Source of the DNA: Rhodococcus maanshanensis NBRC 100610
GTDB lineage: Bacteria; Actinomycetota; Actinomycetes; Mycobacteriales; Mycobacteriaceae
Direction: 5' to 3'
NCBI RefSeq assembly: GCF_001894865.1
Contig: NZ_BCXA01000051.1
Location: forward strand, 1-55,414
Length of the DNA: 55,414 nucleotides
Shown: positions 28,136 to 46,102 of the stretch, piece by piece
Layout: each line of letters opens with the position of its first letter
Numbering within the stretch: the stretch's first letter is position 1
Position numbers and translations under genes: made by a program
Notes under the pieces: model-generated
What the model was told of the DNA's origin: nothing
Seen by the model: only the letters and a program-made list of their open reading frames with translations
Databases searched by the model: none

Positions 28136-28161
28136 CCGGACCCACCGGATCGCATCTGAGC

Positions 28162-28200: not shown

Positions 28201-28219
28201 GTGATCTCGGGGGACCGTG

Positions 28220-29119: not shown

Positions 29120-30358
29120 TCAGAGCGCCAGCCACAGCGCGGCGACGGCGCCGACGATGGTCGGGGGAGTGCTGATCAGGCCGAGCATCGTGAAGGTGTT
29201 CAGCGAAGGCGGCTGACCACAGCGGGTCCCGACCCGGCGCCACAGCAGCGTCGCCAGGGACCCGGTGTAGGTGAGGTTCGGCCCGAGGTTCACCCCGATC
29301 AGCATCGCCAGCAGCAGTCCGGTCGGTGCGCCCGGCCCCAGGGCGCCGATCATCAGGAGTGTGGCCGGCAGGTTGTTGACCAGGTTCGCGGCGATCGCGG
29401 CGATGGACGCTGTCACCAGCAGTGCGGTGAACGATTCCGAATGCGGCAGCAGTCCGCCCACCCAATCGCCGACCTCCCCGGTGGTCAGGGGAGCGACCAG
29501 GATCCCAAGCGCGAGGACGAACACTGCGAAGTAGGGATCCGCCGCGGCGAGCATCGACCGTGGCCTGGTGCGCCCCTCCTTCAGAGCGGGCAGCCCGAGG
29601 AGGGCAACGCCCGCGACCGCGATCCACACCGGGGCCACCCCGATGATTCCGGACAGCGCGAAGCCGAGCAGGGTCAGGCCGAGGACCGTCAGCGCCCAGC
29701 GCGGCGGCGGCGCGAGCCGGCCCGGCGTCGAGGGCGGGGCCGGTTGGGGCGGCGCGGCGAGGTCGCGCGCGAAGAAGAGCCGGAACACCACGAACTCCAC
29801 GGCGATCGCGACGAACCACGGCAGGGCCATCAGGGAGGCGAAGTGGAGGAAGCCGAGGCCCGTCGCCGAGAAGGCCAGCAGGTTCGTCAGGTTCGAGACC
29901 GGTAACAGCGTCGACGCCGAGTTGGCCAGGTGCGCCGCGGCGTAGTTCACCGGGCGCGGCGAGACGCCCATCCTGGTCGCGGTCGCCAGGATCGCGGGCG
30001 TCAACAGCACCACCGTGGCATCCAGGCTCAGCACCGCGGTGGTAATCGCGCAGGCGGCGAACGCCAGTCCCAGCAGCCGCTTCGGGCGACCTCGGCTGCC
30101 GCGCCGCAGGACCGACGCGGTCCAGGTGAACACGCCGTTCGCGTCCGCGAGGTGGGCGAGCACGAGGATCGCGGCGAGGAACGCCACGGTCGGCCCGAGC
30201 GCACGCACCTCCTCGAGGGCCTCTGTCGGGGTCACCGCCCCGAGGCCGACCACGATCAGGGCGGCAGGAGCGGCGACGGCGACTTCGGGTAGTCCGTGCG
30301 GTCGGATGATCGCGGCGGCCAGCACCAGGGCGACGAGGGCGCCGACCAGCCAGACCAT
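29120..30358 (-). CDS. ArsB/SLC13-type membrane permease
   Basis: This 412-residue membrane protein has about ten to eleven helices and belongs to the ion transporter superfamily. It resembles ArsB: LGPTVAFLAAILVLAHLADA, TTAVLSLDATVVLLTPAILA, PVSNLTNLLAFSATGL in the first half, and ANLVNNLPATLLMIGALGPG then GVNLGPNLTYTGSLATLLW in the second. ArsB proteins export arsenite or antimonite. No arsR, arsC or other arsenic gene is nearby, so the substrate is uncertain. It starts 14 bases after the DUF1697 stop, in a possible two-gene unit. Confidence 0.83.
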   Translation of the reverse strand: MVWLVGALVALVLAAAIIRPHGLPEVAVAAPAALIVVGLGAVTPTEALEEVRALGPTVAFLAAILVLAHLADANGVFTWTASVLRRGSRGRPKRLLGLAFAACAITTAVLSLDATVVLLTPAILATATRMGVSPRPVNYAAAHLANSASTLLPVSNLTNLLAFSATGLGFLHFASLMALPWFVAIAVEFVVFRLFFARDLAAPPQPAPPSTPGRLAPPPRWALTVLGLTLLGFALSGIIGVAPVWIAVAGVALLGLPALKEGRTRPRSMLAAADPYFAVFVLALGILVAPLTTGEVGDWVGGLLPHSESFTALLVTASIAAIAANLVNNLPATLLMIGALGPGAPTGLLLAMLIGVNLGPNLTYTGSLATLLWRRVGTRCGQPPSLNTFTMLGLISTPPTIVGAVAALWLAL

Positions 30359-30381
30359 TCGGTGAGTACCTCAGCCGACCG

Positions 30382-30906
30382 TCACAGCAGCTTGCGCAGG
30401 GTGCGCAGGTTCCGGTTGGTCGTCGTCGACTTGTACTTGGCCTTGGCGCTGAGCTTTCCGAACGGGCTCTGCAGGGTCTGGCCGCGTTCGACGTGCCAGT
30501 ACAGGACGCCGTCGCCGAGTGCGACGGACTCGTCGCCGAGCGCGAGAGACTGTGCGGCGGCGAACATGTCGTCCAGCGACGCCGGGTCGGAGGACAGCAG
30601 AACGTACGGGTGCCACCCGTCCCGGTCGGCCTCGAACGGGAACGACTCGACGATCGCGGCCAGCGTCGGATGATCCACCAGCACGATCCAGGCGTCGTAG
30701 CCGAACCTCTCCCGCAGACAGGCCTCGATATCGGACTTGATCGCCTGCCGGTCGGTGCGGTCGGAGTCGAAAAGCACGTTGCCCGAGGCCAATACGGTCT
30801 TGACGCCGTCGAATCCGAGTCCGGAGATCGCGTCCTTGAGGTCCGCCATCTTGATGTTGATCCCGCCGACGTTGACGCCCCGGAGCAACGCGATGTATCT
30901 GGCCAT
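30382..30906 (-). CDS. DUF1697 family protein
   Basis: This 174-residue protein starts MARYIALLRGVNVGGINIKM and follows the DUF1697 pattern (KTVLASGNVLFDSD, ACLRERFGYDAWIVL, KLSAKAKYKSTTTNRNLRTL). Members are small cytoplasmic proteins of unknown function. It is divergent from rnpB and precedes the ArsB-like gene. Confidence 0.92.
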   Translation of the reverse strand: MARYIALLRGVNVGGINIKMADLKDAISGLGFDGVKTVLASGNVLFDSDRTDRQAIKSDIEACLRERFGYDAWIVLVDHPTLAAIVESFPFEADRDGWHPYVLLSSDPASLDDMFAAAQSLALGDESVALGDGVLYWHVERGQTLQSPFGKLSAKAKYKSTTTNRNLRTLRKLL

Positions 30907-30987
30907 GGCTAGACCGTAGACAGTCGACGCCGGTCAAACAAGCGTTCGAGTGTCAGAGCCGAGCGCGGCAGGCAGTAGTCTGTAGCG

Positions 30988-31409
<422 letters not shown>

Positions 31410-31454
31410 CCACTTACCGAGAAGGTGCGGGTCGGGAGTCGATACTCTCTGCCG

Positions 31455-32216
31455 ATGACACTGCTCAAGTCGTCGAGGGACGCCTTCCTCACTGTCGCCT
31501 CGCTCGTCTTCCTCGGGGCCTACGCACTCCCGATCCTGGTGGTGGGACTTCCGCAGGGAATGCGGCTCCTCTGCGACGTCACGATGATCGTCACGTGGGT
31601 CGCCTTCGCGCTCGACTACGGCGACCGACTCGTGCGGGCACGCGAGAAGTGGGACTTCATCAGGGCCAACCTCTTCGAACTGGTGGCACTGCTGCTCCCG
31701 GTGCTCCGTCCGCTGCGCCTGGTGGTGGTGTTGGCCGCACTCAGCCGCAGCATGGCCGGATCGTTCCGGGGCAGGGTCGGCGCATACGTGGTCGGCGGGG
31801 CCGGGCTGCTCGTGTTCTGCGCCGCCCTCGCGGTCCTCGACGCCGAACGTGCCAATCCGGACGCGAACATCACCGGGTTCGGGGACGCGCTCTGGTGGGG
31901 GGTGACGACGGTGACCACCGTCGGCTACGGGGATCGGTACCCGACCACTGCGGAGGGCCGCCTGATCGCGTTCGGGCTGATGCTCGGCGGCGTCGCGCTG
32001 CTCGGCGTCGTGACCGCGTCCCTGGCGTCCTGGTTCGTCGAACGGGTCGCCGCGGCCCAGGAGGACGGGACGAAGCACGCCACCGACGAGATCCACCGGC
32101 TCACCGCGGAGGTCGCCGACCTGAACCGGAGGCTCGCAGAGCAGGCGGGGATGCGCGGGCAGACCCCGGTGGCCGACGGATACAGCTATGCCCCCACCGA
32201 ATCGGCGGGGGCATAG
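31455..32216 (+). CDS. Voltage-gated-type potassium channel
   Basis: This 253-residue protein has hydrophobic segments consistent with S1-S6. An S4-like stretch (LLPVLRPLRLVVVLAALSR) holds spaced Arg residues. The pore helix and selectivity filter (GVTTVTTVGYGDRYPTT) are those of potassium channels. A short cytoplasmic coiled coil follows (HATDEIHRLTAEVADLNRRL). ATG at 31455 lies 45 bases after rnpB, so readthrough from the rnpB promoter is possible. A hairpin overlaps the stop codon. Confidence 0.9.
   Translation: MTLLKSSRDAFLTVASLVFLGAYALPILVVGLPQGMRLLCDVTMIVTWVAFALDYGDRLVRAREKWDFIRANLFELVALLLPVLRPLRLVVVLAALSRSMAGSFRGRVGAYVVGGAGLLVFCAALAVLDAERANPDANITGFGDALWWGVTTVTTVGYGDRYPTTAEGRLIAFGLMLGGVALLGVVTASLASWFVERVAAAQEDGTKHATDEIHRLTAEVADLNRRLAEQAGMRGQTPVADGYSYAPTESAGA
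32187..32215 (+). terminator. Hairpin overlapping the potassium channel stop codon
   Basis: TATGCCCCCACCGA (32187-32200) and TCGGCGGGGGCATA (32202-32215) match at 13 of 14 positions as an inverted repeat, so a stable stem with a short loop forms across the last codons and the TAG at 32214-32216. No T run follows. It may end or stabilise the channel transcript. Confidence 0.55.
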
Positions 32217-32231
32217 CCGGTGAAGCCGGAC

Positions 32232-32333
32232 CTAGACCGGGTTGACGACCAGGGTGGTCGCCCAGTGAGTGGCGGCTTCGGCTCCGAGATGCGGGAGGAG
32301 GGCATCGTAGAGCAGGTAAGACATGGGGGCCAT
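32232..32333 (-). CDS. Possible 33-residue protein
   Basis: A short frame reads MAPMSYLLYDALLPHLGAEA and ends ATHWATTLVVNPV. Codon third positions are GC-rich and GGAG lies ten bases before ATG at 32333. The product has a mildly hydrophobic, amphipathic pattern. It is convergent with the potassium channel gene. No family is recognised, and it could be a chance frame. Confidence 0.35.
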   Translation of the reverse strand: MAPMSYLLYDALLPHLGAEAATHWATTLVVNPV

Positions 32334-32541
32334 GCGGGTGATTCTCCATTTCATACGGGTTGAGGCGGAGCAGCGCGGAATCTCTCGAGTCCTGGATACG
32401 GGTGCGGTGGATGTGACACGCCGTACCCTGCCGCGCGTAAGAGTCTCATGCTTGCGTGCAGTCCTCAAGCGAACGGGCCGAAAAGATTTCGAGTCTTCGG
32501 TTCGGATGGTGAGGGTCGCGGGAACCGGGCACACTGAAGAC

Positions 32542-32730
32542 ATGAGCGAGGACGAAGAGCACCTCTGGTACTACTGCGTGTCGGACGGTTCGGTGCGTCA
32601 GGGCAAGGACGCCCGCGGGCTCGACCGGATGGGCCCCTATCCCGATCGCCAGACCGCCGAGCGTGCGTTGGAGATCGCCGCGGAGCGCAACAAGGCCGCG
32701 GACAAGGCCGAGGACGACTGGAACAACTGA
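32542..32730 (+). CDS. Small SPOR-like protein
   Basis: This 62-residue, highly charged protein (EEHLWYYCVSDGSVRQGKDA then RGLDRMGPYPDRQTAERAL) has the aromatic strand and the GPY-DRxTAxxAL helix pattern seen in SPOR-like domains. It has no signal peptide or membrane segment. It precedes the RNB gene by 46 bases and may share its transcript. The function is unknown. Confidence 0.75.
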   Translation: MSEDEEHLWYYCVSDGSVRQGKDARGLDRMGPYPDRQTAERALEIAAERNKAADKAEDDWNN

Positions 32731-32776
32731 CGGTCGGCCGCGTGGTCGCCGCGAGCCATTACTCTCGGCAGTTGTG

Positions 32777-34198
32777 ATGACGCGTATCTCAGCCCGCGGG
32801 ATCGACTTCGGTGCCATCCGGACCGACTTCTCGCTGACCGCCGATTTTCCCCCGAGGGCCGTCGCGGAGGCGGAGTCCGCGGTCGACCGGTTCGCGGCCG
32901 AGCGCGCGGACCGCACCGACCTGGCGCTGGTCACCATCGACCCGCCGACGTCCATGGACCTCGACCAGGCCCTGCACCTCGAGCGCACGCCAACCGGGTT
33001 CGTCCTGCACTACGCGATCGCTGACGTCGGGGCCGTCGTGGTCCCCGGCGGCGGCCTGGATGCGGAGGTCCGGCGGCGCGGGCAGACCTTCTACCTGCCT
33101 GACGGGTCGCTGCCGCTGCACCCGCGGGTGATGTCCGAGGGTGCCGTCAGCCTGCTGCCCGATCTGGTGCGGCCTGCCGCCCTCTGGCGAATCGAGCTCG
33201 ACGAGCGGGCGGAGCCGGTCTCCGTCGAGGTCACGCGCGCCCTGGTGCGATCGGTCGCACGGTTCGATTACGCGGGGGTGCAGGCGGATTCGGAGTCCGG
33301 ATCGTTGCATCCCTCGATCGCGGCGCTGCCCGAGTTCGGCAAGCTGCGACTCGCATCCGCGATCGACCGCGGCGCGATCGAGCTCAAGCTGCCCGAGCAG
33401 GAGGTGGTCGGCGACGGCGACGGCTGGCGGCTCGAGCTGCAGCCACGCACCGAGGCCGACGACTGGAACGCGGAGGTGTCGCTGCTGACCGGGATGTGCG
33501 CGGCACAGCTGATGATCGACGCGGGCATCGGACTGCTGCGCACGCTGCCTGCCCCGGCGGCTGGCGCGGTCGCGGCCCTGCGCAAGGCCGCGAGCGCACT
33601 CGGCATGGACTGGCCGACGCAGGTCCCGGTCGGCGAGTTCCTCGCGGGGCTGGAGCCGAACACGCCAGCGACGCTGGTGATGATGACCGAGGCGACCTCC
33701 CTGCTACGGGGAGCGGGCTATGCCGCGTTCGACGGCGAGGTCCCCGAGCTGGTCACACATTCCGGGATCGGCGCCCCGTACGCCCACGTCACCGCTCCGC
33801 TGCGGCGCCTCTCGGACCGGTTCAGCACCGAGGTGTGCCTGGCGGTCTGCGCGGGAACGCCGGTGCCGCAATGGGTTCGCGAGGCGCTGCCCTCCCTGTC
33901 GGATCTGATGAGGGGCTCGGACACGTTGGCCAACAAGGTCGACCGTGCCTGTGTGGACCTCACCGAGGCCACCCTGCTCGCCGGCCGCGAGGGGGAGGTG
34001 TTCGAGGCGGTGGTGCTGCGCGGGGTTGACGGCAAGCGCGAGGCCGAGGTCTTCGCGCCGCAGGCGACGGTCATCGGCAAGTGCCTCGGCGATCCGCCGG
34101 AGGGCGAGGCGGTGTCGGTCCGCCTGGTTCAGGCCGACGTGGCCGAGCGGACGGTGAAGTTCGGCTACCCGGCTACAGCTTCCGGCTCGCAGACCTGA
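32777..34198 (+). CDS. RNB-domain ribonuclease (RNase II/R-like, short form)
   Basis: This 473-residue protein is built around an RNB 3'-5' exoribonuclease domain. The metal site TIDPPTSMDLDQALHL keeps three of the four Asp residues; the fourth is Gln. Other RNB segments are YAIADVGAVVVPGGGLDAEV, RRRGQTFYLPDGSLPLHPRV and APYAHVTAPLRRLSDRFSTE. It lacks the N-terminal cold-shock domains of RNase II/R and has only a short C-terminal region. ATG at 32777 follows GTG at 32774, either of which could be used. Its last 26 bases overlap the convergent CHAD gene. Confidence 0.87.
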   Translation: MTRISARGIDFGAIRTDFSLTADFPPRAVAEAESAVDRFAAERADRTDLALVTIDPPTSMDLDQALHLERTPTGFVLHYAIADVGAVVVPGGGLDAEVRRRGQTFYLPDGSLPLHPRVMSEGAVSLLPDLVRPAALWRIELDERAEPVSVEVTRALVRSVARFDYAGVQADSESGSLHPSIAALPEFGKLRLASAIDRGAIELKLPEQEVVGDGDGWRLELQPRTEADDWNAEVSLLTGMCAAQLMIDAGIGLLRTLPAPAAGAVAALRKAASALGMDWPTQVPVGEFLAGLEPNTPATLVMMTEATSLLRGAGYAAFDGEVPELVTHSGIGAPYAHVTAPLRRLSDRFSTEVCLAVCAGTPVPQWVREALPSLSDLMRGSDTLANKVDRACVDLTEATLLAGREGEVFEAVVLRGVDGKREAEVFAPQATVIGKCLGDPPEGEAVSVRLVQADVAERTVKFGYPATASGSQT

Positions 34199-35045
34199 TC
34201 TTGCGCACCAGCTTTCGCGACCGCGGCACGGCGACTCGAACCCGGTCGGCCTCGACGGCTGTCAGCACGCCGTAGGTGAAGGTGTCCTCGCCCGCGCCGC
34301 GGGCCAGGTCGGCCGCGGCCAGCAGCCGGGACCGTGCGACCACGGAATCGTGGTGATCGCCGAGCACGGTCTGCAGCTTCTTCGCCGCCTTGCCTGCCCG
34401 CACGGGCGAGGGACGGGTGGATGCGGCGGCCTCCGCGGCGTACCGGAGCGCCTTGGCGCGCTTGCGGACCGTGTGCAGGCGCTCCGGCGTCGGTTCGCCG
34501 GTGCCTCCCGCGGTGAGTCCGGCCTTCCTCGCCGCCTTGCGCACCCTGCGACGGGCGTGGTGCAGCCCGGACCGGACCGCGTCGTGCCGCTGCGGGGCCG
34601 CCGCGAGCAGGGCGTCCAGCGCGGCGAGGAGCGCCTCGTAGCGCGGGCCGTCGAGCGTGGCGACCGCCTCGGTGTGCGCGTCGCGGTAGGCGAGCTCGTT
34701 GGTCTCGATCAGGCGGTGGCGGACGGGCCCGCGGATCAGTTCGGGAGGCTGCGCGTCGAGGAGCTCGCGAAACCGCTCGGCCATCACCTCGGCGTCCCTG
34801 GCGTTGCCGAGAACCGTACCCAGCCATCGGAGTTCGGCCCGCACGCCGTCGGTGTCACCGTCCGGGAACAGCGACCGGTAGCTGCCGAGCGCGCTGCGCA
34901 GGCGCCGCGCCGACACCCGCATCTGGTGCACGGAGTCGAACTCGTCGCGGCGCACCCCGTCGGCGTGCGCATCCAGTTCGTCGGCGTGCTCGCGCAGCGC
35001 CGCCAGCACGACCGTGGTTCCGTCCGATGTGCGCCCCTTGCCCAT
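34173..35045 (-). CDS. CHAD domain protein
   Basis: This 290-residue helical protein has conserved His, Arg and Lys on repeated helices: DSVHQMRVSARRLRSALGSY, LRWLGTVLGNARDAEVMAER, LHHARRRVRKAARKAGL, LHTVRKRAKALRYAAEAAA and KKLQTVLGDHHDSVVARSRL. CHAD domains bind polyphosphate. In M. tuberculosis the protein at this place (Rv2226) has a CYTH domain fused to CHAD; here only CHAD is present. Confidence 0.9.
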   Translation of the reverse strand: MGKGRTSDGTTVVLAALREHADELDAHADGVRRDEFDSVHQMRVSARRLRSALGSYRSLFPDGDTDGVRAELRWLGTVLGNARDAEVMAERFRELLDAQPPELIRGPVRHRLIETNELAYRDAHTEAVATLDGPRYEALLAALDALLAAAPQRHDAVRSGLHHARRRVRKAARKAGLTAGGTGEPTPERLHTVRKRAKALRYAAEAAASTRPSPVRAGKAAKKLQTVLGDHHDSVVARSRLLAAADLARGAGEDTFTYGVLTAVEADRVRVAVPRSRKLVRKIRSASRKL

Positions 35046-35093
35046 ACCTCAGGTCTACCCGCCCGCGTCCGTCGCTGTCGAGAGTTGCGCGCG

Positions 35094-36050
35094 TCAGCCG
35101 CGAAAGGTGTCGGTCGCCTCGACCAGGTGATGGGTGATCCCCGGCTCGTTGGCGGCGTGCCCGGCGTCGTCGACGATCACCAGTCGGGCCGACGGCCAGG
35201 CCCGGTGCAGGGCCCACGCGCTGGTCGTCGGGCACACCACGTCGTACCGGCCCTGCACGATCACCGCCGGGATCGTCTCGAGCGCGGCGATGTCCCGGAG
35301 CAACTGGCCTTCCGCGAGGAATCCGTGATTGCGGAAGTAGTGGTTCTCGATCCGCGCGAACGCCAGGGCGAAGCGCGGCTCTGCGCTCTCCTCGACACGC
35401 GCGGGCCTCGGCAGCAGCGAACTGGTGGCGCCCTCCCAGGTGGACCAGGCGACGGCGGCAGCAAGCGCGACGTCGGCGTCGGGGGAGTGCAGCAGGCGGT
35501 GGTACGCCTCGACGAGGTCGCCGCCGCGCTCGGCCTCGGGCACCGGGGCGAGGAAGCCCTCCCACAGGTCGGGGTAGATCGCGCTCGCGCCGCCGTTGTA
35601 GTACCAGTCGATCTCGCTGCGGCGCAGCAGGAACACCCCGCGCAGCACGAGCTCGGTGACCCGGTCCGGGTTGGCCTGCGCGTACGCCAATGCGAGCGTC
35701 GAACCCCAGGAACCGCCGAAGACCTGCCAGCGCTGCACCCCGAGATGGGTGCGCAGGGCCTCGATGTCGGCGATGAGGTGCTGTGTGGTGTTCACCGACA
35801 GGTCCGCGCCGTCGGCGACGTGCGGGGTCGAACGCCCGCAGCCGCGCTGATCGAACAGCACGATCCGGTAGGCGTCGGGGTCGAAGAACCGGCGGTGGTC
35901 CGCGGTGGTGCCGCCGCCGGGCCCGCCGTGCAGGAACACGACGGGCTTGCCGTCGGGATTGCCGCTGACCTCCCAGTAGATGCGCTGCCCGTCGCCGACG
36001 TCGAGGTGCCCGGCGCGGTGCGGCTCGATCTCGGGGTACAGGTCCCGCAT
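35094..36050 (-). CDS. pip: Proline iminopeptidase
   Basis: This 318-residue alpha/beta hydrolase of peptidase family S33 removes N-terminal proline from peptides. It shows the oxyanion region VVFLHGGPGGGTT, RIVLFDQRGCGRSTPH, the nucleophile elbow QVFGGSWGSTLALAYAQ, the acid Asp in IVQGRYDVVCP, and the His in VDDAGHAANEPG. ATG at 36050 is six bases past the stop of the lipoprotein gene, so the two form a unit. Confidence 0.93.
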   Translation of the reverse strand: MRDLYPEIEPHRAGHLDVGDGQRIYWEVSGNPDGKPVVFLHGGPGGGTTADHRRFFDPDAYRIVLFDQRGCGRSTPHVADGADLSVNTTQHLIADIEALRTHLGVQRWQVFGGSWGSTLALAYAQANPDRVTELVLRGVFLLRRSEIDWYYNGGASAIYPDLWEGFLAPVPEAERGGDLVEAYHRLLHSPDADVALAAAVAWSTWEGATSSLLPRPARVEESAEPRFALAFARIENHYFRNHGFLAEGQLLRDIAALETIPAVIVQGRYDVVCPTTSAWALHRAWPSARLVIVDDAGHAANEPGITHHLVEATDTFRG

Positions 36051-36055
36051 CGGTG

Positions 36056-36496
36056 TCAGAACCCGATCAGGCCCGATGCCAGGTCCGGGATCCGCAGCGA
36101 TTCGATCGCCTCGGCGCGCACATCCGGGCACTGCGCCTGGGTGATCGCGTCGATCCGCGCCTTGTTGCCCATCAGCTCGATGACGTTGAGGCCGTTCTGG
36201 GCGGCCCAGGTGCCGACGACCGTGTTCAGCCCGCCCTTGCCGATGGTCGGGGTGTAGGTGCGCCAGCTCTGCAGCTGTGCCTGCATGTCCGAGCACAGCT
36301 GGGCGGCCTGCGCCTCGGTGACGCCGCCTGCGACGACGCCGCCCGGCGCCGGGGCGGCGGAGGTGCCGGGCAGGGTGCCCGTGCCGCCGCTCGGCGCGGG
36401 GGCGGGTGCAGGGGCGTTCTCGGTGGCGCAGCCGCTCGCGAGAGCAACGACAGCAGCGGCTCCGGCGACGGCGGCCGCGAGACGACGATGGAACAT
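36056..36496 (-). CDS. Putative lipoprotein, DUF-type
   Basis: This 146-residue protein has a lipoprotein signal with lipobox LASGC (Cys23), then a Pro/Ala/Gly linker, then a conserved-looking domain (AAQLCSDMQAQLQSWRTYTP, NTVVGTWAAQNGLNVIELMG). It is anchored outside the membrane. No family name can be given. It is expressed just ahead of pip. Confidence 0.78.
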   Translation of the reverse strand: MFHRRLAAAVAGAAAVVALASGCATENAPAPAPAPSGGTGTLPGTSAAPAPGGVVAGGVTEAQAAQLCSDMQAQLQSWRTYTPTIGKGGLNTVVGTWAAQNGLNVIELMGNKARIDAITQAQCPDVRAEAIESLRIPDLASGLIGF

Positions 36497-36526
36497 GTAG
36501 GCACCCTGTCTTTCGGTGAAGTGTGT

Positions 36527-36552
36527 GGCGCGCGCGGGATACCGCGCGCGCC
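36527..36552 (-). terminator. GC hairpin upstream of the lipoprotein gene
   Basis: GGCGCGCGCGG (36527-36537) pairs exactly with CCGCGCGCGCC (36542-36552) around a four-base loop. It may add to the terminator of panB or shape the lipoprotein gene's leader. Confidence 0.5.
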
Positions 36553-36572
36553 GTTGTCATCGAGTGTGCCAT

Positions 36573-36619
36573 CGCGCGACGACAACCCGCCCCGCGAGAG
36601 GGCGGATCGTCGTCGCGCG
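36573..36619 (-). terminator. Strong hairpin just downstream of panB
   Basis: CGCGCGACGAC plus CCCGCCC (36573-36592) pairs with GGGCGG plus GTCGTCGCGCG (36600-36619), interrupted by a small internal loop. It begins 12 bases after the panB stop and probably terminates panB. Confidence 0.7.
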
Positions 36620-36630
36620 TGGAGCAGGCG

Positions 36631-37479
36631 TCAGAAGCTGTGTTCCTCGGCGGGGAAGGTGCCGGACCGGACCTCGGCGGCGTAGGCGGCCGCCGCGCCG
36701 CGCAGGTCGTCGCCGACGGCGGCGAACTTCTTGACGAACTTGGCGGTCTTGCCGCTGGTGTACCCGGCCATGTCCTGCCAGACCAGCACCTGGGCATCGC
36801 ACTCGGAGCCAGCGCCGATGCCGACGGTCGGGATCGTCAGCTTCCTGGTGACCTGCCCGGCGATTTCGGCGGGCACCATCTCCATGACCACGGAGAACGC
36901 GCCGGCCTCCTGCACGGCGATGGCGTCGGCGACGAGCTGCTCGGCGCCGTCGCCGCGGCCCTGCACGCGGAAGCCGCCGAGGCTGTTCACGGACTGCGGG
37001 GTGAACCCGATGTGCGCCATCACCGGGATTCCCGCCGCGGTGATCGCGGCGATCTGCGGGGCGACGCGCTCGCCGCCCTCGAGCTTGACCGCGTGTGCCT
37101 GGCCCTCCTTCATGAACCGGGTGGCGGTGGCCAGTGCCTGCTCGGGGGAGGACTCGTAGCTGCCGAACGGCAGGTCGGCGACGACGAGGGCGTTCGGGGC
37201 GCCGCGGACCACGCCGCGGACCAGGGGGATCAGCTCGTCGATGGTGATCGGCACCGTCGTGTCGTAGCCGTACACGACGTTGGCGGCGGAGTCGCCGACC
37301 AGGAGTACCGGGATGCCGGCCTCCTCGAAGAGCCGCGCGGTCGAGTAGTCGTACGCGGTGAGCATCGCCCAGCGCTCACCCTCGGCCTTCATGGCCTGCA
37401 GGTGATGGGTGCGGATCTTGGTTCGCTTGGCGGCCGGCTGAGCGGGCGCGGAACCGTAGGGCGCAGTGTTATCGGACAT
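36631..37479 (-). CDS. panB: 3-methyl-2-oxobutanoate hydroxymethyltransferase
   Basis: This 282-residue TIM-barrel enzyme adds hydroxymethyl from methylene-THF to ketoisovalerate in pantothenate synthesis. Visible are [20 protein letters not shown], the Mg-binding [38 protein letters not shown] with the conserved [21 protein letters not shown], and [20 protein letters not shown]. Length matches the family. It begins the divergent unit facing the DUF559 gene's end. Confidence 0.96.
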
Positions 37480-37616
37480 CAGTGTCCCTTTCGTGCCTCG
37501 AGGCCCAGTGCGGGTCCCCGGGTTGTGGGTGATGACGTAGCTCAGTCTGCCACCGGCCGATCACCCCGAGAACAGGCGGTGACGTGCAATTGGTCACACC
37601 GGCCGTGGTCGATTGT

Positions 37617-37655
37617 GGGAAGGATCGGCCCCGCATTCCGGGGCCGATCCTTCCC
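37617..37655. repeat. Perfect hairpin element, copy 1, next to the DUF559 gene
   Basis: GGGAAGGATCGGCCCCG (37617-37633) is the exact reverse complement of the 17 bases at 37639-37655, around loop CATTC. It ends eight bases from the DUF559 stop. A near-identical copy lies in inverted orientation at 38588-38630, on the other side of that gene. No T run follows. Confidence 0.9.
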
Positions 37656-37662
37656 GCATTGG

Positions 37663-38538
37663 TTACGAGCGGCTGCCGAGTGCCGAGACGATCTGCTGCA
37701 GGACGGAATCCGGGTCGTGTCGAAGCTGGTGCCAGGTGAAGCGCAGCACGTGCCAGCCGGCGTTGACCAGGATGTTCTGTCGCCGGGCATCGTTGTTGAA
37801 CCGGGCCACGTCGCGGTGCCAGGCCCACCCGTCCACTTCGATCGCAACGCGGCTGCGTACGAACGCCACATCGATCTCGTAGCCACAGCTGGTGACGTGG
37901 GTACTCCAGCCGGTCAGTTCCGAGCCCCGCAGCAACCGCAGCAGCATTCGCTCGGCTTCCGACGCGCCGCCCTCGCCTGCCGAGCGGAGCAGCCGGGTGG
38001 CCGCGGCGGTGCCGAACCGTCCGCTGTTTCGCTCGTGCACTGCCTCCAGGATCGCGAGGGTCGTGTGCCGTTGCAGCGCTCGGTCCATCAATGCCGATCC
38101 GTCCCGGAGCTCGACGGCGGCCTCCAGGACGGTCAGCGGGAGCTCGGTGATGCGCAGGCCGCGAACTGTGCCGATATCGCTCCAGTGCAGGTCGCGCCGC
38201 CGGATGCGGATCCGATCCCGGTTCTTGACGGCGCGGGCGCGGGGGATCGTGACCAGGTCGTCGGCGGGAGGTCGGTCGGTGAGACCGAGCCACCAGGCCG
38301 CGCTGGTTCCGCTCGCCACGGCGTCCGGTCCGGCGGCGAACACCGACGCGCGCAACCGCGCCGCCCGAGTGAGCTGCCGGTCGGACCGTAGGTAGACGCC
38401 CCGGTACAGACGACGCCACTGACCGGTGCTGACCCGGCGGTCGACGGCTGTCGTGCTCATGCCCGCCGACCGCGCCTGCCCCAGGGTGATGACGCCGTCC
38501 TGGTTTGCCATCACGGCGTGCACGGCGATCGGAGTCAT
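37663..38538 (-). CDS. AbiEi-type winged-helix plus DUF559 (Vsr-like) nuclease protein
   Basis: This 291-residue protein has two parts. The N-terminal AbiEi-type antitoxin domain reads VITLGQARSAGMSTTAVDRR, then RLYRGVYL. The C-terminal DUF559 domain, of the very-short-patch-repair endonuclease fold, has the catalytic-type residues in GYEIDVAFVRSRVAIEVDGW followed by AWHRDVARFNNDARRQNILV and HVLRFTWHQL. The Asp, the ExDG and the His are kept. The gene stands alone between panB and the Hip1-like gene and is bracketed by two inverted hairpin copies, as if it were one unit. ATG at 38538 is used; a later ATG is possible. Confidence 0.85.
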   Translation of the reverse strand: MTPIAVHAVMANQDGVITLGQARSAGMSTTAVDRRVSTGQWRRLYRGVYLRSDRQLTRAARLRASVFAAGPDAVASGTSAAWWLGLTDRPPADDLVTIPRARAVKNRDRIRIRRRDLHWSDIGTVRGLRITELPLTVLEAAVELRDGSALMDRALQRHTTLAILEAVHERNSGRFGTAAATRLLRSAGEGGASEAERMLLRLLRGSELTGWSTHVTSCGYEIDVAFVRSRVAIEVDGWAWHRDVARFNNDARRQNILVNAGWHVLRFTWHQLRHDPDSVLQQIVSALGSRS

Positions 38539-38587
38539 GTCGTCTTGGACGTCGGCCGGACCGCCTCGCGTTCCAACCGACGCGCAG

Positions 38588-38630
38588 TTCGGCAGGATCG
38601 GCCCCGGAATGCGGGGTCGATCCTGCCGAA
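38588..38630. repeat. Near-perfect hairpin element, copy 2, inverted relative to copy 1
   Basis: TTCGGCAGGATCGGCCCCG (38588-38606) pairs with 38612-38630 at 18 of 19 positions, around loop GAATG. The core GGATCGGCCCCG and the loop (reverse complement of CATTC) match copy 1 in inverted orientation. It lies 50 bases upstream of the DUF559 start and 47 bases before the Hip1-like gene. Confidence 0.9.
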
Positions 38631-38676
38631 AGAGCGCGGACCGGCCCGTTTCGGGGCCCGTGGCACCATCGATGGC

Positions 38677-40251
38677 ATGCCGATATCGCGCCGAGTCCCT
38701 GTCGCCCTGGCCGTGGGAGCGCTCGTCGCAGCCATGGCCGCCGGATGCGGGAGCGTGGTCGACGGGGCCGCCAAGGGTGAGCCCGCAGGCGGGGCTGCGG
38801 GCGACTTCGGTCCCGGTGCGGGCACGGTGCCCGCGGGCTTGGAGGCGTTCTACACGCAGACCCCGCAGTGGGAGTCCTGTGAGCGCTACAGCACCGACGG
38901 GATGCCGCTGTCCAGCAGGATCGAGTGCGCCGAGATCACCGTGCCGGTGGACTACGCGGACCCGTCGGGCGACACCGCCAAGATCGCGATCTCCCGGAGC
39001 CAGGCGACCGGCTCGAAGATCGGTTCCGTGCTGGTCAACCCAGGCGGTCCCGGCGCCTCCGGCTTGTCGATGGCGACCGAGGGCTCGGGCACCGCGTTGG
39101 GCGAACGGTTCGACGTGATCGGGTTCGACCCGCGCGGGATCGGTGCGTCGACACCGCAGGTGCGCTGCCTGACGCCCGCAGAGAACGACGAGAAGCGCGC
39201 GGATCCCGGCGTGGACATGAGCCCGGAGGGGATCGCCAGGACCGAGGCGAAGAACGCCGACTACGCGCGCAAGTGCGCCGAGCGGACCGGCGCCGAGTTC
39301 CTCGAGCACGTCGGCACCCGCGAGGTGGTTCGGGACATGGACGTGATCCGGTCGGTGCTCGGCGACGAGAAGCTCAGCTATCTCGGGTACTCCTACGGCA
39401 CCCGGCTCGGCTCGAGCTACGCCGAGACGTTCCCCGCGAACGTGCGCGCGATGGTGCTCGACGGTGCGCTCGACCCGAACCAGGATCCGGTCGAGGAGGT
39501 GGTGCTGCAGGCGGCCGGCTTCCAGACGGCGTTCGACGCGTTCGCGGCGGACTGCGCGGCGTCGGACGACTGCCCGCTCGGCACCGACCCGGCCCGGTTC
39601 ACCGCGAGGTTCCAGGAGCTGGTCGATCCGCTGGTGGACAAGCCGGCGGACACCACCGATCCAAGGGGCCTCGGCTACCGGGACGCGATCACCGGGGTCC
39701 AGCAGGCGCTGTACTCGCAGAACCTGTGGGGGGCGCTGCGCGGAGGGCTCAGCTCGCTGGCCGACGGCCACGGCGACACCCTCCTGCAGCTGGCCGACAC
39801 GTACGAGGGTCGCCAGGCGGACGGCAGTTACAGCAACATCGATGACGTGTTCAACGCGGTTCGGTGCGTCGACGACCCGCCGGTCACCGATCGGGCCGAG
39901 GCCGGCGCGGCGGACACCGAGTTCCGGCGGGCCGCCCCGTTCCTCGACGACGGCCGCGGCACGGGCAATGCCCCGCTGGACACCTGCGCCTTCTGGCCGG
40001 TGCCCAGCTCGGGGGCCCCGCACACGATCGATGCGCCGGGCCTGCCGCCCCTCGTCGTGATCTCGACGACCGAGGATCCCGCCACGCCGTACCAGGCCGG
40101 AGTGGAGCTGGCCAAGCAGCTCGGGGCCTCGCTGATCACGTACCGGGGGACCCAGCACACCGTCGCGATGAGCGGCGTCTCCTGCGTCGACGACCCCGTC
40201 GTCGAGTACCTCACCGAGCTGACCGAACCCCAGCCCGACCTCACGTGTTAG
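38677..40251 (+). CDS. Hip1/CaeA-like serine hydrolase lipoprotein
   Basis: This 524-residue alpha/beta hydrolase has a lipoprotein signal (MAAGCGS lipobox). Motifs are VLVNPGGPGASGLSMATEG, VIGFDPRGIGAS, the nucleophile elbow YLGYSYGTRLGSSYAETFP, and a C-terminal TAP-like segment (VVISTTEDPATPYQAGVELA, then RGTQHTVA with the catalytic His). It is anchored at the cell surface. It matches Rv2224c/Rv2223c by position and family; M. tuberculosis has two such genes side by side, here there is one. Confidence 0.9.
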   Translation: MPISRRVPVALAVGALVAAMAAGCGSVVDGAAKGEPAGGAAGDFGPGAGTVPAGLEAFYTQTPQWESCERYSTDGMPLSSRIECAEITVPVDYADPSGDTAKIAISRSQATGSKIGSVLVNPGGPGASGLSMATEGSGTALGERFDVIGFDPRGIGASTPQVRCLTPAENDEKRADPGVDMSPEGIARTEAKNADYARKCAERTGAEFLEHVGTREVVRDMDVIRSVLGDEKLSYLGYSYGTRLGSSYAETFPANVRAMVLDGALDPNQDPVEEVVLQAAGFQTAFDAFAADCAASDDCPLGTDPARFTARFQELVDPLVDKPADTTDPRGLGYRDAITGVQQALYSQNLWGALRGGLSSLADGHGDTLLQLADTYEGRQADGSYSNIDDVFNAVRCVDDPPVTDRAEAGAADTEFRRAAPFLDDGRGTGNAPLDTCAFWPVPSSGAPHTIDAPGLPPLVVISTTEDPATPYQAGVELAKQLGASLITYRGTQHTVAMSGVSCVDDPVVEYLTELTEPQPDLTC

Positions 40252-40283
40252 TAACCGATTTCACGATGTAACACAGATTTAAC
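40251..40283 (+). promoter_or_regulatory. Weak GlnR-like boxes upstream of glnA2
   Basis: GTAAC at 40251-40255 and 40268-40272, the latter followed by six bases and TTAAC (40279-40283), resemble the GTnAC-N6-GnAAC pattern of GlnR sites. The match is partial. It is supported mostly by the good box before glnA1. Confidence 0.35.
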
Positions 40284-40306
40284 GGACTTTGCCTACTCTC
40301 GCGGAC

Positions 40307-41647
40307 ATGGATCGCCAAAAGGAATTCGTGCTCCGCACCCTCGAAGAGCGCGACATCCGTTTTGTCCGACTGTGGTTCACCGATGTGCTCGGCTACCTGA
40401 AGTCGGTGGCGATCGCCCCGGCCGAGCTCGAGGGTGCCTTCAGCGAGGGCATCGGGTTCGACGGCTCGGCCATCGAGGGCTTCTCGCGGGTCTCGGAGGC
40501 GGACACCGTCGCCAAGCCGGATCCGTCGACGTTCCAGATCCTGCCGTGGGCGCACAAGGACGGCGCCCAGCACTCGGCGCGCATGTTCTGCGACATCGCG
40601 ATGCCGGACGGGACCCCGTCGTGGGCCGACCCCCGCCACGTGCTGCGCCGACAGCTGAGCAAGGCGAGCGACCTCGGGTTCAGCTGCTACGTGCACCCCG
40701 AGATCGAGTTCTTCCTGCTCGAGAACGGCCCCGTCGACGGCACCCCGCCGGTGCCCGCGGACAGCGGCGGCTACTTCGACCAGGCCGTGCACGACTCGGC
40801 GCCGAACTTCCGCAGGCACGCCATCGACGCGCTCGAGTCGATGGGCATCTCGGTCGAGTTCAGCCATCACGAGGCCGCGCCAGGGCAGCAGGAGATCGAC
40901 CTGCGTTACGCCGACGCACTGTCGATGGCCGACAACGTGATGACCTTCCGCTACATCGTGAAGGAGGTCGCGATCAACGAGGGCGTTCGCGCGACCTTCA
41001 TGCCCAAGCCGTTCAGCGATCAGGCCGGGTCGGCCATGCACACCCACATGAGCCTGTTCGAGGGCGAGAACAACGCCTTCCACAACCCGGATGACCCGAT
41101 GCAGCTCTCGGACACCGGCAAGGCGTTCATCGCGGGCATCCTCGAGCACGCCAACGAGATCAGCGCGGTGACCAACCAGTGGGTGAACTCCTACAAGCGG
41201 CTGATCCACGGCGGCGAGGCCCCGACCGCCGCGTCCTGGGGACCGTCGAACCGCTCGGCCCTGATCCGGGTGCCGATGTACACGCCGAACAAGGCGTCGT
41301 CGCGCCGCGTCGAGATCCGCAGCCCAGACTCGGCCTGCAACCCGTATCTCACCTTCGCGGTGCTGCTCGCCGCCGGACTCCGTGGCATCGAGAAGGGCTA
41401 CGAGCTGCCGCCCGAGGCCGAGGACGACGTCTGGTCGCTGACCTCGGCGGAGCGCAGGGCGATGGGCTACAAGGAGCTGCCGAGCAGCCTCGACACCGCG
41501 CTGCGCGAGATGGAGCGCTCGGAGCTGGTGGCCGAGGCCCTCGGCGAGCACGTGTTCGATTTCTTCCTGCGCAACAAGCGGCGCGAGTGGGAGGAGTATC
41601 GCAGCCAGGTGACCCCGTTCGAGATCAAGACCTACCTGGGTCTGTAA
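40307..41647 (+). CDS. glnA2: Glutamine synthetase GlnA2 (type I)
   Basis: This 446-residue glutamine synthetase family enzyme lacks the long C-terminal region of GlnA1. Segments: FTDVLGYLKSVAIAPAELEG, GIGFDGSAIEGF, CYVHPEIEFFLLE with metal Glu, HHEAAPGQQEIDLRYADAL, AGSAMHTHMSLFEG, VPMYTPNKASSRRVEIRSPD. It forms a transcription unit with glnE, six bases downstream. Length equals mycobacterial GlnA2. It could act on glutamate or polyamines; which one is not clear from sequence. Confidence 0.93.
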   Translation: MDRQKEFVLRTLEERDIRFVRLWFTDVLGYLKSVAIAPAELEGAFSEGIGFDGSAIEGFSRVSEADTVAKPDPSTFQILPWAHKDGAQHSARMFCDIAMPDGTPSWADPRHVLRRQLSKASDLGFSCYVHPEIEFFLLENGPVDGTPPVPADSGGYFDQAVHDSAPNFRRHAIDALESMGISVEFSHHEAAPGQQEIDLRYADALSMADNVMTFRYIVKEVAINEGVRATFMPKPFSDQAGSAMHTHMSLFEGENNAFHNPDDPMQLSDTGKAFIAGILEHANEISAVTNQWVNSYKRLIHGGEAPTAASWGPSNRSALIRVPMYTPNKASSRRVEIRSPDSACNPYLTFAVLLAAGLRGIEKGYELPPEAEDDVWSLTSAERRAMGYKELPSSLDTALREMERSELVAEALGEHVFDFFLRNKRREWEEYRSQVTPFEIKTYLGL

Positions 41648-41653
41648 GCGCAG

Positions 41654-44600
41654 ATGGTCAAGCCGCCTACCGCCCGTTCCACCATCCCCAGCGTCGGCCG
41701 TCTCGGCCTCGTCGAGCCGACCGCGGGGGACGAGCTCGCCCACCTCGACTGGGCCAACCCGGAGAGCCTGGAGCTGCTCTGGGCGCTCTCGCGCGCCGCG
41801 AATGCCGACCTGGCACTGCGCACCCTGGTCCGTGTGAAGGACGGTCTCGGTGACGGGTGGGCCGAGCTCGATGCCGAACTCCGCACCGATACGGCCTTGC
41901 GGGGCAAACTGTTCGGGTTGATCGGTGCATCCAGCGCGTTCGGTGACCACCTCGTCGCCGACCCGTCCGGGTGGAAGCTGCTGGCGGGGGAGTCCCAGCT
42001 GCCGAGCCGAGACGAGCTCACCGACGAGCTGCTGGCCAGCGTGCAGGCCACCCCCGACGGCAGCGCGTCCGAGACCAACCTGGTGTACCGGGCGGGGATC
42101 ACCGGACCCGCCGCGATCGCCGCGCTGCGCAAGACCTACCGCGACCAGCTGATGGTGCTGGCGGCCGCCGACCTGGCGGCCACCGTCGAGAACGAGCCCG
42201 TCTTGCCGTACCAGACGGTCGGGCGACAGCTCTCCGACATGGCCGACGCCGCGCTCACGGGGGCGCTCGCTGTCGCGGTCGCGGAGATCTATCCCGACGG
42301 GCCGTGTCCGGCCCGGCTCGCCGTGATCGCGATGGGCAAATGCGGTGCGCGCGAACTGAACTACGTCAGCGATGTCGACGTGGTGTTCGTCGCGGAGCCC
42401 TCGGATGCGTCCACCAGCCGGCTCGCGGGCGAGCTGATGCGGGTGGGTTCGGCCGCCTTCTTCGAGGTCGACGCGGCGTTGCGGCCCGAGGGCAAGCGCG
42501 GCGAGCTGGTGCGTACCCTCGACTCGCACATCGCGTACTACAAGCGCTGGGCCAAGACCTGGGAGTTCCAGGCGCTGCTCAAGGCGCGACCGGCGACCGG
42601 CGACCTCGGCCTCGGCGAACGCTACGTCGACGCGCTGAACCCGATGGTGTGGACGGCCTCGGAGCGCGAGGATTTCGTCGTCGACCTGCAGGCCATGCGC
42701 CGTCGGGTCGAGGAGATGGTGCCGCCGGAGCTGCGCGAGCGGGAGATCAAGCTCGGCCGTGGCAGTCTGCGCGACGTCGAGTTCGCGGTGCAGTTGTTGC
42801 AGCTGGTGCACGGGCGCGCGGACGAGTCGCTGCACGTGAAGAGCACCGTCGACGCGCTGACCGCCCTCGCGGCCGGCGGCTATGTCGGGCGCGACGACGC
42901 CGCGAATCTCGCTGCGTCGTACGAGTTCCTGCGCTTGATCGAGCACCGGCTGCAGTTGCAGAAGCTCAAGCGAACCCACACGCTGCCGCCCGCGCACGAC
43001 GAGGAGGCGCTGCGCTGGCTCGCCCGCGCCGCGCACATGCGTCCGGACGGCCAGCGGGACGCGCTCGGCGTGCTCAATGCCGAGGTCAAGCGCAACGCGC
43101 ACCGGATCCGTCGCCTGCACGCCAAGCTCTTCTACCGCCCGCTGCTGGAATCGGTTGCCCGGCTGGACAAGGACGCGATCCGGTTGAGCCCGGACGCGGC
43201 GACGCGTCAGCTCGCGGCGCTCGGCTACACCGCGCCCGAGAACGCCCTCGGTCACCTGAAGGCGTTGACCGGCGGCGCATCGCGCAAGGGGCGGATCCAG
43301 GCCCTGCTGCTGCCGACGCTGCTCGAATGGCTCAGCGACACCCCGGATCCCGACGCCGGACTACTCGCCTACCGCAGGCTGTCCGAGGCCATGCTGGAGC
43401 AGGACTGGTTCCTTCGGGTCCTGCGTGACGAGGGCGCGGTGGCCCAGCGCCTGATGATCGTGCTCGGGTCGTCCGCGTACATCCCGGACCTGCTGATCAA
43501 GGCCCCGGACGTGCTGCGGCTGTTCGCCGATGGGCCGGCGGGCCCCCGGCTGCTCGACATCGACCCGGACGAGGTCGCCCGCGGGATCCTGTCTTCCTCT
43601 GCGCGCTATGACGACCCGGCGCGTGCTGTCGGTGCCGCCCGCTCGCTGCGCAGGCACGAGCTGGCGCGGGTGGCGTCGGCCGACGTGCTGGGAATGCTCG
43701 ACGTCCCGCAGGTGTGTCGCGCCCTGTCCTCGGTGTGGGCGGCCGTGCTCGGTGCCGCGCTCGACGCGGTGATCCGGGCCAGCGAGGCCGAACTGGGCGG
43801 ACCGGCACCCGCGTCGTTCGCGGTGATCGGGATGGGCAGGCTCGGCGGCGGGGAGCTCGGTTACGGCTCGGACGCGGACGTGCTGTTCGTCTGCGAGCCC
43901 AGGCCGGGCGAGGACGAGGTCCGGGCGGTCAAGTGGGCCAACAGCATCGCGGATCGGGTGCAGAAGCTGCTCGGCGCGCCGAGCACGGACCCGCCGCTCG
44001 AGGTGGACACCGGCCTGCGCCCGGAGGGCCGCAACGGTCCGCTGGTGCGGACGCTGGCGTCGTACGAGGCGTACTACCGACAGTGGGCGCAGGCCTGGGA
44101 GATCCAGGCGCTGCTGCGCGCGCACACCGCCGCGGGCGACCCGGATCTCGCACTGCGGTTCCTGCACATGATCGACCAGACCCGGTACCCGGAGGGCGGG
44201 GTCTCCGAACAGGCGGTCCGCGAGATCCGGCGGATCAAGGCCAGGGTCGACTCCGAGCGGTTGCCGCGCGGCGCCGACCCGGCCACCCACACCAAGCTCG
44301 GACGCGGCGGGCTCGCCGACGTGGAGTGGACGGTCCAGCTGATCCAGCTCCGGCACGCCCACGATGTGCCCGCCCTGCACAACACCTCGACCCTGCAGAC
44401 GCTGGATGCGATCGGCGCCGCGGAACTGATGAGCGAGACGGACATCGAGCTGTTGCGCGAGGCCTGGCTCACGGCGACCAAGGCCCGCAACGCCCTGGTC
44501 CTGGTGCGCGGCAAACCAACCGATCAGCTGCCGGGACCTGGCCGGGTTCTGTCCGCGGTCGCGGCGGTCGCCGGCTGGGACTCCGGCGACGCCGGGGAGT

Positions 44601-44668
44601 TCCTGGACAACTACCTGCGCGTCACGCGCCGGGCGAAGGCCGTGGTGGAGCACACCTTCGGCGCCTGA
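41654..44668 (+). CDS. glnE: Glutamine synthetase adenylyltransferase/deadenylase
   Basis: This 1004-residue enzyme switches GlnA by adding or removing AMP. Two nucleotidyltransferase domains are visible. The N-terminal deadenylase half has [21 protein letters not shown]-type residues (in two blocks, [20 protein letters not shown] and VVFVAEP). The C-terminal adenylyltransferase half has [20 protein letters not shown] then LFVCEP. Each is followed by a GlnD-UR_UTase-like helical domain ([40 protein letters not shown]). Its target GlnA1 is encoded 3.8 kb away. Confidence 0.95.
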
Positions 44669-44677
44669 CCGCGGATC

Positions 44678-45778
44678 TCACGGGCAGAGCGCGTGCGAGA
44701 GCAGGGCCTCGCTGTCGGTCTGCCGGGTCGGGATCTGGGTGAGGGTGATGGTCACCGCCCTGCCCTCGGTGCTCGCGCCGGACAGGGTGTAGTAGCCGGG
44801 GATTCCCCCGGTGTGGCCGACGTACCTGACCCCGCAGGGCAGGTCGCTGGATCCGACGCCGAGGCCGTACCCCATGCCCCCGGCCTCGTCGGCGGCCGGT
44901 TGCGCCTTCGTCATCTCGTCCAGTTGTGCACGGGGAACCACCTTTCCGTCCAGCAGGGCCAGCCAGAACCTGTTGAGGTCGCGGCCGGTGGAGACCAGGG
45001 CACCCGCGGACCATGGCACCGAGGGCTCGATCATCGAGACGTCGGCGACGACGCCGTCGACGTCCTGGTATCCGGACGGGTGCGGGCCCCGGATCGCGCG
45101 CTCGCCCGGGCCGGGAAGGTAGGTGTCCTCGAGGCCGAGGGGCCCGAGGATGCGGGTGGTGAGCTCGTCGGTGTAGCTGTGCCGGGTCACCGCCTCGATC
45201 AGCATGCCGAGCACGATGTAGTTGGTGTTGGTGTAGAGGAAGCGGGAACCCGGTGGGAACTGCGCCGGTTTGGCCATCGCGATCGCCACCGCCTGTGCCG
45301 GGGTGATCGTGCGGTTCTCGGTCGCGGCGACCAGTTCGTCCGCCCCTGGCTCGCCCGCGAACTCGGGCAGCCCGCTGCGATGCTGCATGAGCTGCCGGAC
45401 CGTGATCGCCGTGCCGTCCCCGCCCGCACCCGCGATCAGGCCGGGCAGGTAGCTCTCGATGGCGCGGTCGAGATCGATCTTTCCCTCCGCCACCAGCTGC
45501 ATGATGACCGCGGACGTGAAGGTCTTGGTGATGCTGCCCACTCGGACGCGGCTGTCGTCGGCGATCTCGGCGCCCGTCGTGCGATCGCCGACACCGCTCG
45601 TCAGGACCGTGGTGGTGCTGCCCGCGCTCACGGTCGTCACGGCGCCAACGACCCCCGCGCTCGTCAGCCCGTCGAGGTCGGTCTGCAGGGTGCGGGTGCG
45701 CTCGAAATCCGCACAGCCACTGAGCAGTAGGGCGATCGCGGCGATGGCGGCGGTGATCGCCGGCTTCTGTGGTCGCAT
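44678..45778 (-). CDS. Serine hydrolase lipoprotein (beta-lactamase / DD-peptidase family)
   Basis: This 366-residue protein of the class C beta-lactamase fold has a lipoprotein signal (LLLSGCADFE). Motif one is VGSITKTFTSAVI (SxTK), motif two FLYTNTNYIVLGML (YxN), and a late HTGGIPGYYTLSG (the KTG equivalent). It probably acts on peptidoglycan peptides or esters; beta-lactam hydrolysis is not implied. ATG at 45778 is used. It is divergent from the M-box/mgtC unit. Confidence 0.88.
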   Translation of the reverse strand: MRPQKPAITAAIAAIALLLSGCADFERTRTLQTDLDGLTSAGVVGAVTTVSAGSTTTVLTSGVGDRTTGAEIADDSRVRVGSITKTFTSAVIMQLVAEGKIDLDRAIESYLPGLIAGAGGDGTAITVRQLMQHRSGLPEFAGEPGADELVAATENRTITPAQAVAIAMAKPAQFPPGSRFLYTNTNYIVLGMLIEAVTRHSYTDELTTRILGPLGLEDTYLPGPGERAIRGPHPSGYQDVDGVVADVSMIEPSVPWSAGALVSTGRDLNRFWLALLDGKVVPRAQLDEMTKAQPAADEAGGMGYGLGVGSSDLPCGVRYVGHTGGIPGYYTLSGASTEGRAVTITLTQIPTRQTDSEALLSHALCP

Positions 45779-45931: not shown

Positions 45932-45944
45932 GGAAACGCAGCAC

Positions 45945-46092: not shown

Positions 46093-46102
46093 TGGAGGTG
46101 TC

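Follow-up and report, generated by a model that had tools for sequence, protein, structure and literature searches.

DUF559 is listed in Pfam as a protein of unknown function. In the accounts drawn on here, REP palindromes, the partners of RAYT genes, are described as occurring in over 100 copies (PMC2817692) and as carrying a GTAG-type tetranucleotide at one end (PMC3733652), the homing endonuclease I-Bth0305I as dimerising on a target of nearly 60 bp (PMC3943268), and AbiEi antitoxins as binding inverted repeats in their own promoters (PMC7319586). A locus with a likeness to each of these lies in the window, by which we mean the whole stretch of DNA analysed, 55,414 nucleotides of Rhodococcus maanshanensis NBRC 100610 (contig NZ_BCXA01000051.1), where a gene for an AbiEi-DUF559 fusion nuclease stands between two long palindromes.

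The locus and the encoded protein

The features of the locus are as follows.

36631..37479, minus strand: panB, flanking host gene (ORF; named from the initial annotation and sequence reading)
37612..38633, minus strand: proposed mobile unit, made up of palindrome, 46 bp, AbiEi-DUF559 gene and palindrome, with the 49-bp palindrome registers as its ends
37612-37660: downstream palindrome register, 49 bp, centre base 37636
37617..37655, unstranded: downstream palindrome, 17-bp perfect arms, 5-nt centre, loop CATTC
37663..38538, minus strand: AbiEi-DUF559 fusion nuclease gene, 291 aa, ATG at 38538, stop at 37663-37665
37666..37968, minus strand: part coding for the predicted nuclease domain, residues 191-291, Vsr/I-Bth0305I fold
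37975..38538, minus strand: part coding for the AbiEi-like region, residues 1-188, proposed palindrome binder
38585-38633: upstream palindrome register, 49 bp, centre base 38609
38588..38630, unstranded: upstream palindrome, 19-bp arms with one mismatch, 5-nt centre, loop GAATG
38677..40251, plus strand: Hip1/CaeA-like hydrolase, flanking host gene (ORF, ATG at 38677; named from the initial annotation)

Both hairpins lie where the initial annotation had placed them, with the arms and loops it gave, and the 37-mers of the two palindromes are 92% identical when inverted vs 84% when direct, so that its description of the copies at this locus as inverted was correct. The unit would end at 37612 and 38633, as judged from the palindrome registers and from other loci. 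Seven bases separate the downstream hairpin from the nuclease gene stop codon (37663-37665), and 49 separate the upstream hairpin from the ATG beginning at 38538; the hydrolase gene and the nuclease gene point away from each other, which places the upstream palindrome between their starts. Of the flanking genes, panB is matched at 1e-60 in 39 of 41 related genomes.

With up to three mismatches allowed, a pattern of the palindrome core has four matches in the window (two sites on both strands), whereas 100 shuffles of the window gave 0.06 on average and never more than 2. These shuffles, together with the reversed-pattern control, the flank-match statistics and the same-geometry control given below, rule out a chance origin of the hairpins. 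No Rfam family was found at either hairpin; the Rfam matches in the window are RNase P RNA (30993-31408) and an M-box magnesium riboswitch (45938-46104), both over the gathering score, one tRNA, and nothing else. Further long near-perfect hairpins, perhaps terminators, occur in the window at 10448-10484, 28161-28201, 48456-48495, 50631-50665 and 54287-54328.

The window protein matches three Pfam families over their cut-offs, MTES_1575 (2.8e-13), DUF559 (1.2e-12) and AbiEi_4 (1.1e-10), all of which are also matched at E 0.01 in 35 of 35 members of A1, with the nuclease domain retained in every one. Pfam scans of the window protein and these 35 members returned DUF559, MTES_1575, AbiEi families, Vsr (3 members) and NOMO_6th, and no Y1/HUH transposase family. 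Comparison of an AlphaFold model of the protein (mean pLDDT 90.8) with known structures, using VIA-align 2 to re-align the top-ranked Foldseek chains, predicts an AbiEi fold joined to an I-Bth0305I/Vsr fold; residues 1-188 would form the former, as in the AbiEi antitoxins 6y8q and Rv2827c (1zel), and the nuclease domain resembles I-Bth0305I (3r3p) in fold and sequence profile. The nuclease domain, of predicted Vsr/I-Bth0305I fold, keeps its acidic and His residues: E196, D223, E234, D236, H241 and D250 are invariant. Pfam and the fold comparison thus bear out the earlier reading of this gene as a DUF559 gene with a Vsr-type fold that keeps its acidic and His residues. In the named collection the protein comes closest to one of Rhodococcus oryzae (92%).

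Matched palindromes around relatives of the gene

Relatives were gathered by protein search and their loci then fetched. At 1e-25, relatives occur in 120 of 301 family genomes; drawn from part of the matches listed for these 120 genomes, 149 loci with the gene reduce to 122 distinct ones, window included. Each was given the score of the best local alignment of two 200-bp segments, one spanning the start of the gene and the other its end (match 1, mismatch -2, gaps -4/-1). This flank score is at least 20 in 80 of the 122 distinct loci and at least 18 in 82; 40 loci lack a score of 18 or more. Between different loci 1.14% of pairs score at least 20, and placements of the same geometry elsewhere in the same loci do so in 0 of 546 cases (3 of 546 at 18 or more), so that the association of such palindromes with other DUF559 genes, a point raised by the initial annotation, is borne out among relatives. 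Hairpins with arms of at least 8 are present on both flanks in 52 of the 82 loci scoring at least 18, on one flank in 18 and on neither in 12. The distance from the upstream copy to the chosen start has a median of 45 bp (quartiles 42-49) and is approximate, because start codons were picked by script. The downstream copy is found at the stop codon, between 20 bp ahead of the end of the codon and 25 bp past it, in 80 of 82 loci.

More distant relatives show a flank score of at least 20 in 7 of 22 distinct loci. This set comprised 35 loci, of which 6 are paralogs from the window's own genome, and 32 were scored (L010, L303 and L318 were unscored); the 22 exclude the paralogs, three duplicates, L220 (start wrongly placed, score 200) and L225 (a gene already in the panel). 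The own-genome DUF559 paralogs score 21 (L005), 39 (L006), 33 (L009), 17 (L008) and 10 (L007). Each of L005, L006, L008 and L009 has its own, different matched flanking repeats, those of L006 and L008 having a GTCGAGTGTG core in common.

Centres could be assigned in 157 of 164 flanks. The centre is odd in 153 of the 157, and 113 of these 153 have the form CG-N5-CG. Among the 142 palindromes whose 49-bp register is complete, the arms are highly complementary at positions 3-8 and 13-18, with a dip to about 0.6 at positions 9-10, and -17/+17 are complementary in 142 of 142, usually as G/C. Overall symmetry is partly built in, because centres were chosen for maximal symmetry; the positional bases and the dip at 9-10 are free of this bias. 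The common plan would suit the site of one protein family and, equally, a folded hairpin whose stem is weak midway. CG-N5-CG also occurs in 9 of 30 other long hairpins of the same loci, some of which are perhaps solo copies, and for this reason it was not used alone as a marker. Where both palindromes of a locus could be centred (63 loci), 35 pairs are more alike in direct orientation, 21 in inverted orientation and 7 are tied, so that there is no single transposon-like orientation; a strictly inverted arrangement was rejected as a general rule, inverted being the better fit in just those 21 of 63.

Palindrome sequence varies between loci and agrees within a locus: 49-bp identity in the 63 loci averages 0.82 within and 0.43 between loci, the former to be read in the light of these loci having been preselected for matching flanks. 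Palindrome type and protein change together. Across 82 loci, protein identity and palindrome similarity are correlated (Mantel r 0.53, p 0.0005; pairs are not independent), and the coefficient is 0.36 when only the 3182 pairs that share no flank are taken. Taken by protein region, Mantel r is 0.41 for the wHTH, 0.54 for the middle and 0.42 for the nuclease, values not decisive enough to make a single region the one that sets specificity. In 31 of 42 orthologous-site pairs a palindrome resembles its partner in the locus more closely than its orthologue, which suggests concerted change of the flanking palindromes; loci entered this test on the strength of a good match between their own two flanks, a choice that tilts it towards the 31. 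In the other 11 pairs orthologous palindromes are at least as alike as those within a locus, as plain descent predicts; all 11 are at protein identity of 0.78 or more, and the pair of the window and L011 is among them.

Solo palindromes and sites without the gene

A longer palindrome pattern has four sites in the whole genome of the window strain, two at the gene and one solo copy each at C13:19089 and C30:16952, and its reversed form, used as a control, has 0 matches there. By ORF reading both solos lie between convergent genes, of which heuristic gene calling supports just the right-hand gene of the C30 site. Four sites in total rule out a high-copy REP family in this genome. Dispersal is found in a related genus, g45: of 301 family genomes, 18 match a GATTTCGG-type pattern, and g45 accounts for 12 of the 18, with 4-24 matches per genome, some of these gene-flanking; the reversed pattern has no matches in the 301. 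Of the further genomic copies that the initial annotation asked about, the own genome has just the two solos, so that REP-like dispersal is seen only in other genomes. Within g45, matches occur in 11 of 15 genomes that have the gene vs 1 of 13 without it (Fisher p 0.0006, kinship ignored).

We fetched 44 such palindromes from seven g45 genomes, of which 6 lie inside called ORFs. No DUF559 match at 1e-6 was found near the fetched solos. Best or tied matches are to the gene palindromes of their own genome for 33 of 39 solos (the 44 minus five from G288, which is without a gene to compare), and G306, which has two genes of different types, has solos of both types. At the phoH stop, a palindrome of this general type is present, by eye, in about 13 of 30 g45 loci, in several versions. 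Some solos occur in pairs about 0.4 to 2.7 kb apart, at C1:13190/13973 and 29802/30225 in G275 (L246, L247) and at C1:647064/649724 and 1500614/1502319 in G306 (L240, L243); these could be composite units or remnants.

Positions of the solos bear on the possibility that all of these palindromes are ordinary terminators, intrinsic or bidirectional, which end transcription of the nuclease gene and its neighbours and owe their likeness to chance or shared ancestry. For 35 of the 38 non-ORF solos a called 3' end is at most 30 bp away, vs 597 of 1360 random intergenic placements, and 14 lie between two gene 3' ends, as judged from heuristic gene calls some of which look like antisense artefacts; the convergent genes around the two own-genome solos point the same way, as does the frequency of long hairpins elsewhere in the window. 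It is likely that solos are used as terminators. As an account of the whole, this explanation is nonetheless unlikely: the upstream copy lies between divergent gene starts, prediction of T-tract terminators over 30000-45000 made one call, at 41545, and none at the hairpins, and matched copies around one gene family, type-matching with the nuclease and a common architecture would all be left unexplained.

Sites without the gene are found at panB and elsewhere. The caeA-panB interval, measured to the start of the panB match, is 1200 bp in the window and G001, 238 bp in G002 (a congener) and 233 bp in G004. The initial annotation had proposed that relatives might have this site without the gene and with at most one hairpin; G002 is such a case, with one palindrome of the same type, and G004 has, by eye, a decayed palindrome. 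In each of these two genomes seven candidates were scored and no protein relative was reported at 1e-25. Both sites fit insertion at a solo palindrome as well as loss leaving one, and the direction of events at panB is one that we infer. At a second site, in R. spelaei, a monooxygenase gene and a RidA-like gene converge (names by sequence reading), with a unit between their stops; at the corresponding junction G000 and G001 are without the gene and have one hairpin of a different type. Two further observations concern panB in other genera. In G020 a 62% identical nuclease gene lies beside panB (L069 and L106), on the opposite strand and with a different palindrome type, whereas in the window gene and panB share a strand. 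Upstream of panB in G014 (L070), where the family-genome search at 1e-25 reported no protein relative, there is by eye an unrelated long hairpin with arms of about 23 bases.

The 82 loci fall into 26 flank-context clusters, 12 of them single, by a lenient test for shared flanks; a count of 37 clusters was discarded as too high, several pairs flagged in it as unshared in fact sharing a flank. At 65-80% protein identity a flank is shared by 39 of 141 pairs and at 80% or more by 22 of 22, with no pair of the latter found at different sites. Different sites thus occur at moderate, not small, protein distance, and as all 22 close pairs share flanks, no recent move is seen and movement looks slow. 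Alignments between pairs unshared on one side, which by definition are without long homology there, mostly end inside the palindrome (376 of 397 on the left, 338 of 387 on the right), and those that reach the outer arm stop within it in 17 of 21 and 44 of 49 cases, respectively. For example, when L038 and L045 (78% protein identity) are compared over 2 kb on each side, plus strand, the block of homology runs almost exactly from palindrome to palindrome; the same comparison of L040 and L045 gives a like block, except that L040 has an additional solo copy in its left flank.

These comparisons also bear on a strict free-standing homing endonuclease, which would cut the empty allele at the same site and be copied by allelic repair, the dispersed solos having another cause. 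The I-Bth0305I nuclease fold, the panB site with one palindrome and no gene, and the many copies at orthologous sites (58 pairs; all 22 close pairs) agree with it. We consider it improbable nevertheless: intact target-like palindromes persist on both sides of the gene, so that insertion would leave the host site unprotected, some related copies are at different sites with palindromes as their limits, and solos are usually of the gene's own type.

A proposed unit and its relation to known systems

It is unlikely that the palindromes are simply operators, with the AbiEi-like domain regulating its own gene through the upstream copy and the solos forming a regulon without mobility, for although AbiEi antitoxins are described as binding promoter repeats (PMC7319586) and the upstream copy keeps a nearly constant distance from the start, a second copy is at the stop codon, solos lie at 3' ends (2 of 38 near a 5' end without a 3' end), all 35 of the members scanned retain the nuclease domain, and copies occupy different chromosomal contexts; autoregulation through the upstream palindrome may coexist with mobility.

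We therefore return to the reading in which gene and palindromes belong together, and regard it as probable, with some room for doubt, that they form one selfish unit of roughly 1 kb. The AbiEi-like half would bind the arms of its own palindrome type, most likely as a dimer, and the Vsr/I-Bth0305I-type half would nick or cut near the CG-N5-CG centre. Host enzymes would repair the break with the palindromes serving as shared ends; such repair would occasionally move or copy the palindrome-gene-palindrome unit to solo palindromes or gene 3' ends, leave or spread solo palindromes, and keep the two flanking palindromes alike. Dimeric binding, cutting and the repair route are the presumptive parts of this scheme. 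Binding and cutting of the palindrome by the protein is the simplest reading of fold and co-variation, which in turn agree with the earlier suggestion that the nuclease recognises its palindrome; to this extent the suggestion is a deduction from sequence and predicted structure. The suggestion of a small mobile or homing unit gains support from the G002 site, from the palindromes around the gene in most relatives examined, from the co-variation and, in some pairs, from the limits of homology, tempered by the lack of any close pair at different sites and by the two solos of the own genome. The data support a gene that, with its cognate palindromes, changes place as a unit on an evolutionary scale, leaving or spreading palindromes.

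A limited literature search, with bioRxiv and most subscription journals outside its scope, found no description of such palindrome-flanked units and no paper on AbiEi and DUF559 together; papers naming DUF559 did not concern palindromes by title or start of abstract, and those found for DUF559 with palindrome look unrelated. The joint change of enzyme and palindromes across many relatives, at different places in the chromosome, points to a kind of tiny mobile element not recognised before. We lean, if only somewhat, towards a separate class of prokaryotic mobile element across the window's phylum, in which an AbiEi-Vsr nuclease would recognise, cut and spread its own palindromic ends, so that REP-like families would exist without an HUH transposase and REP-type systems would have evolved at least twice. 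Such a reading would give one large branch of DUF559 a testable role, account for the intergenic palindrome families of Rhodococcus and related bacteria, and suggest that an unrelated enzyme has given rise to REP-like systems; the many enzyme-palindrome pairs diversified in nature would be rich material on how nucleases shift from one target sequence to another.

Among known systems, intrinsic terminators differ in the T-tract that follows a G+C-rich stem, no terminator of this kind having been called at the window hairpins. With regard to AbiE type IV toxin-antitoxin systems, the neighbours here are panB and the Hip1-like gene (names by reading). AbiEi antitoxins (6y8q, Rv2827c 1zel) share the AbiEi fold predicted for residues 1-188, and the difference lies in the nuclease fusion, found in 35 of 35 A1 members. 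I-Bth0305I (3r3p), an EDxHD homing endonuclease, resembles the nuclease domain in fold and sequence profile, whereas the DNA-binding part here is AbiEi-like, the gene is free-standing and two palindromes flank it. RAYT genes with REP palindromes (REPtrons), to which the initial annotation had likened the layout, provide the closest plan, as that comparison holds for the gene between two palindromes, for a palindrome type that co-varies with the enzyme, and for dispersed solo palindromes whose type follows the gene, as far as REPtrons are covered in the accounts drawn on (PMC2817692, PMC3733652). The differences are that the enzyme here is an AbiEi-Vsr-fold nuclease with no Y1/HUH family by Pfam, that the flanking copies are more often direct than inverted, that no genome has more than 24 matches to the single solo type that was counted, and that the palindromes are about 40-50 bp long with usually a CG-N5-CG centre. 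Because the plan is the same and the enzyme unrelated, the locus works like a RAYT/REP unit and is not a member of that family.
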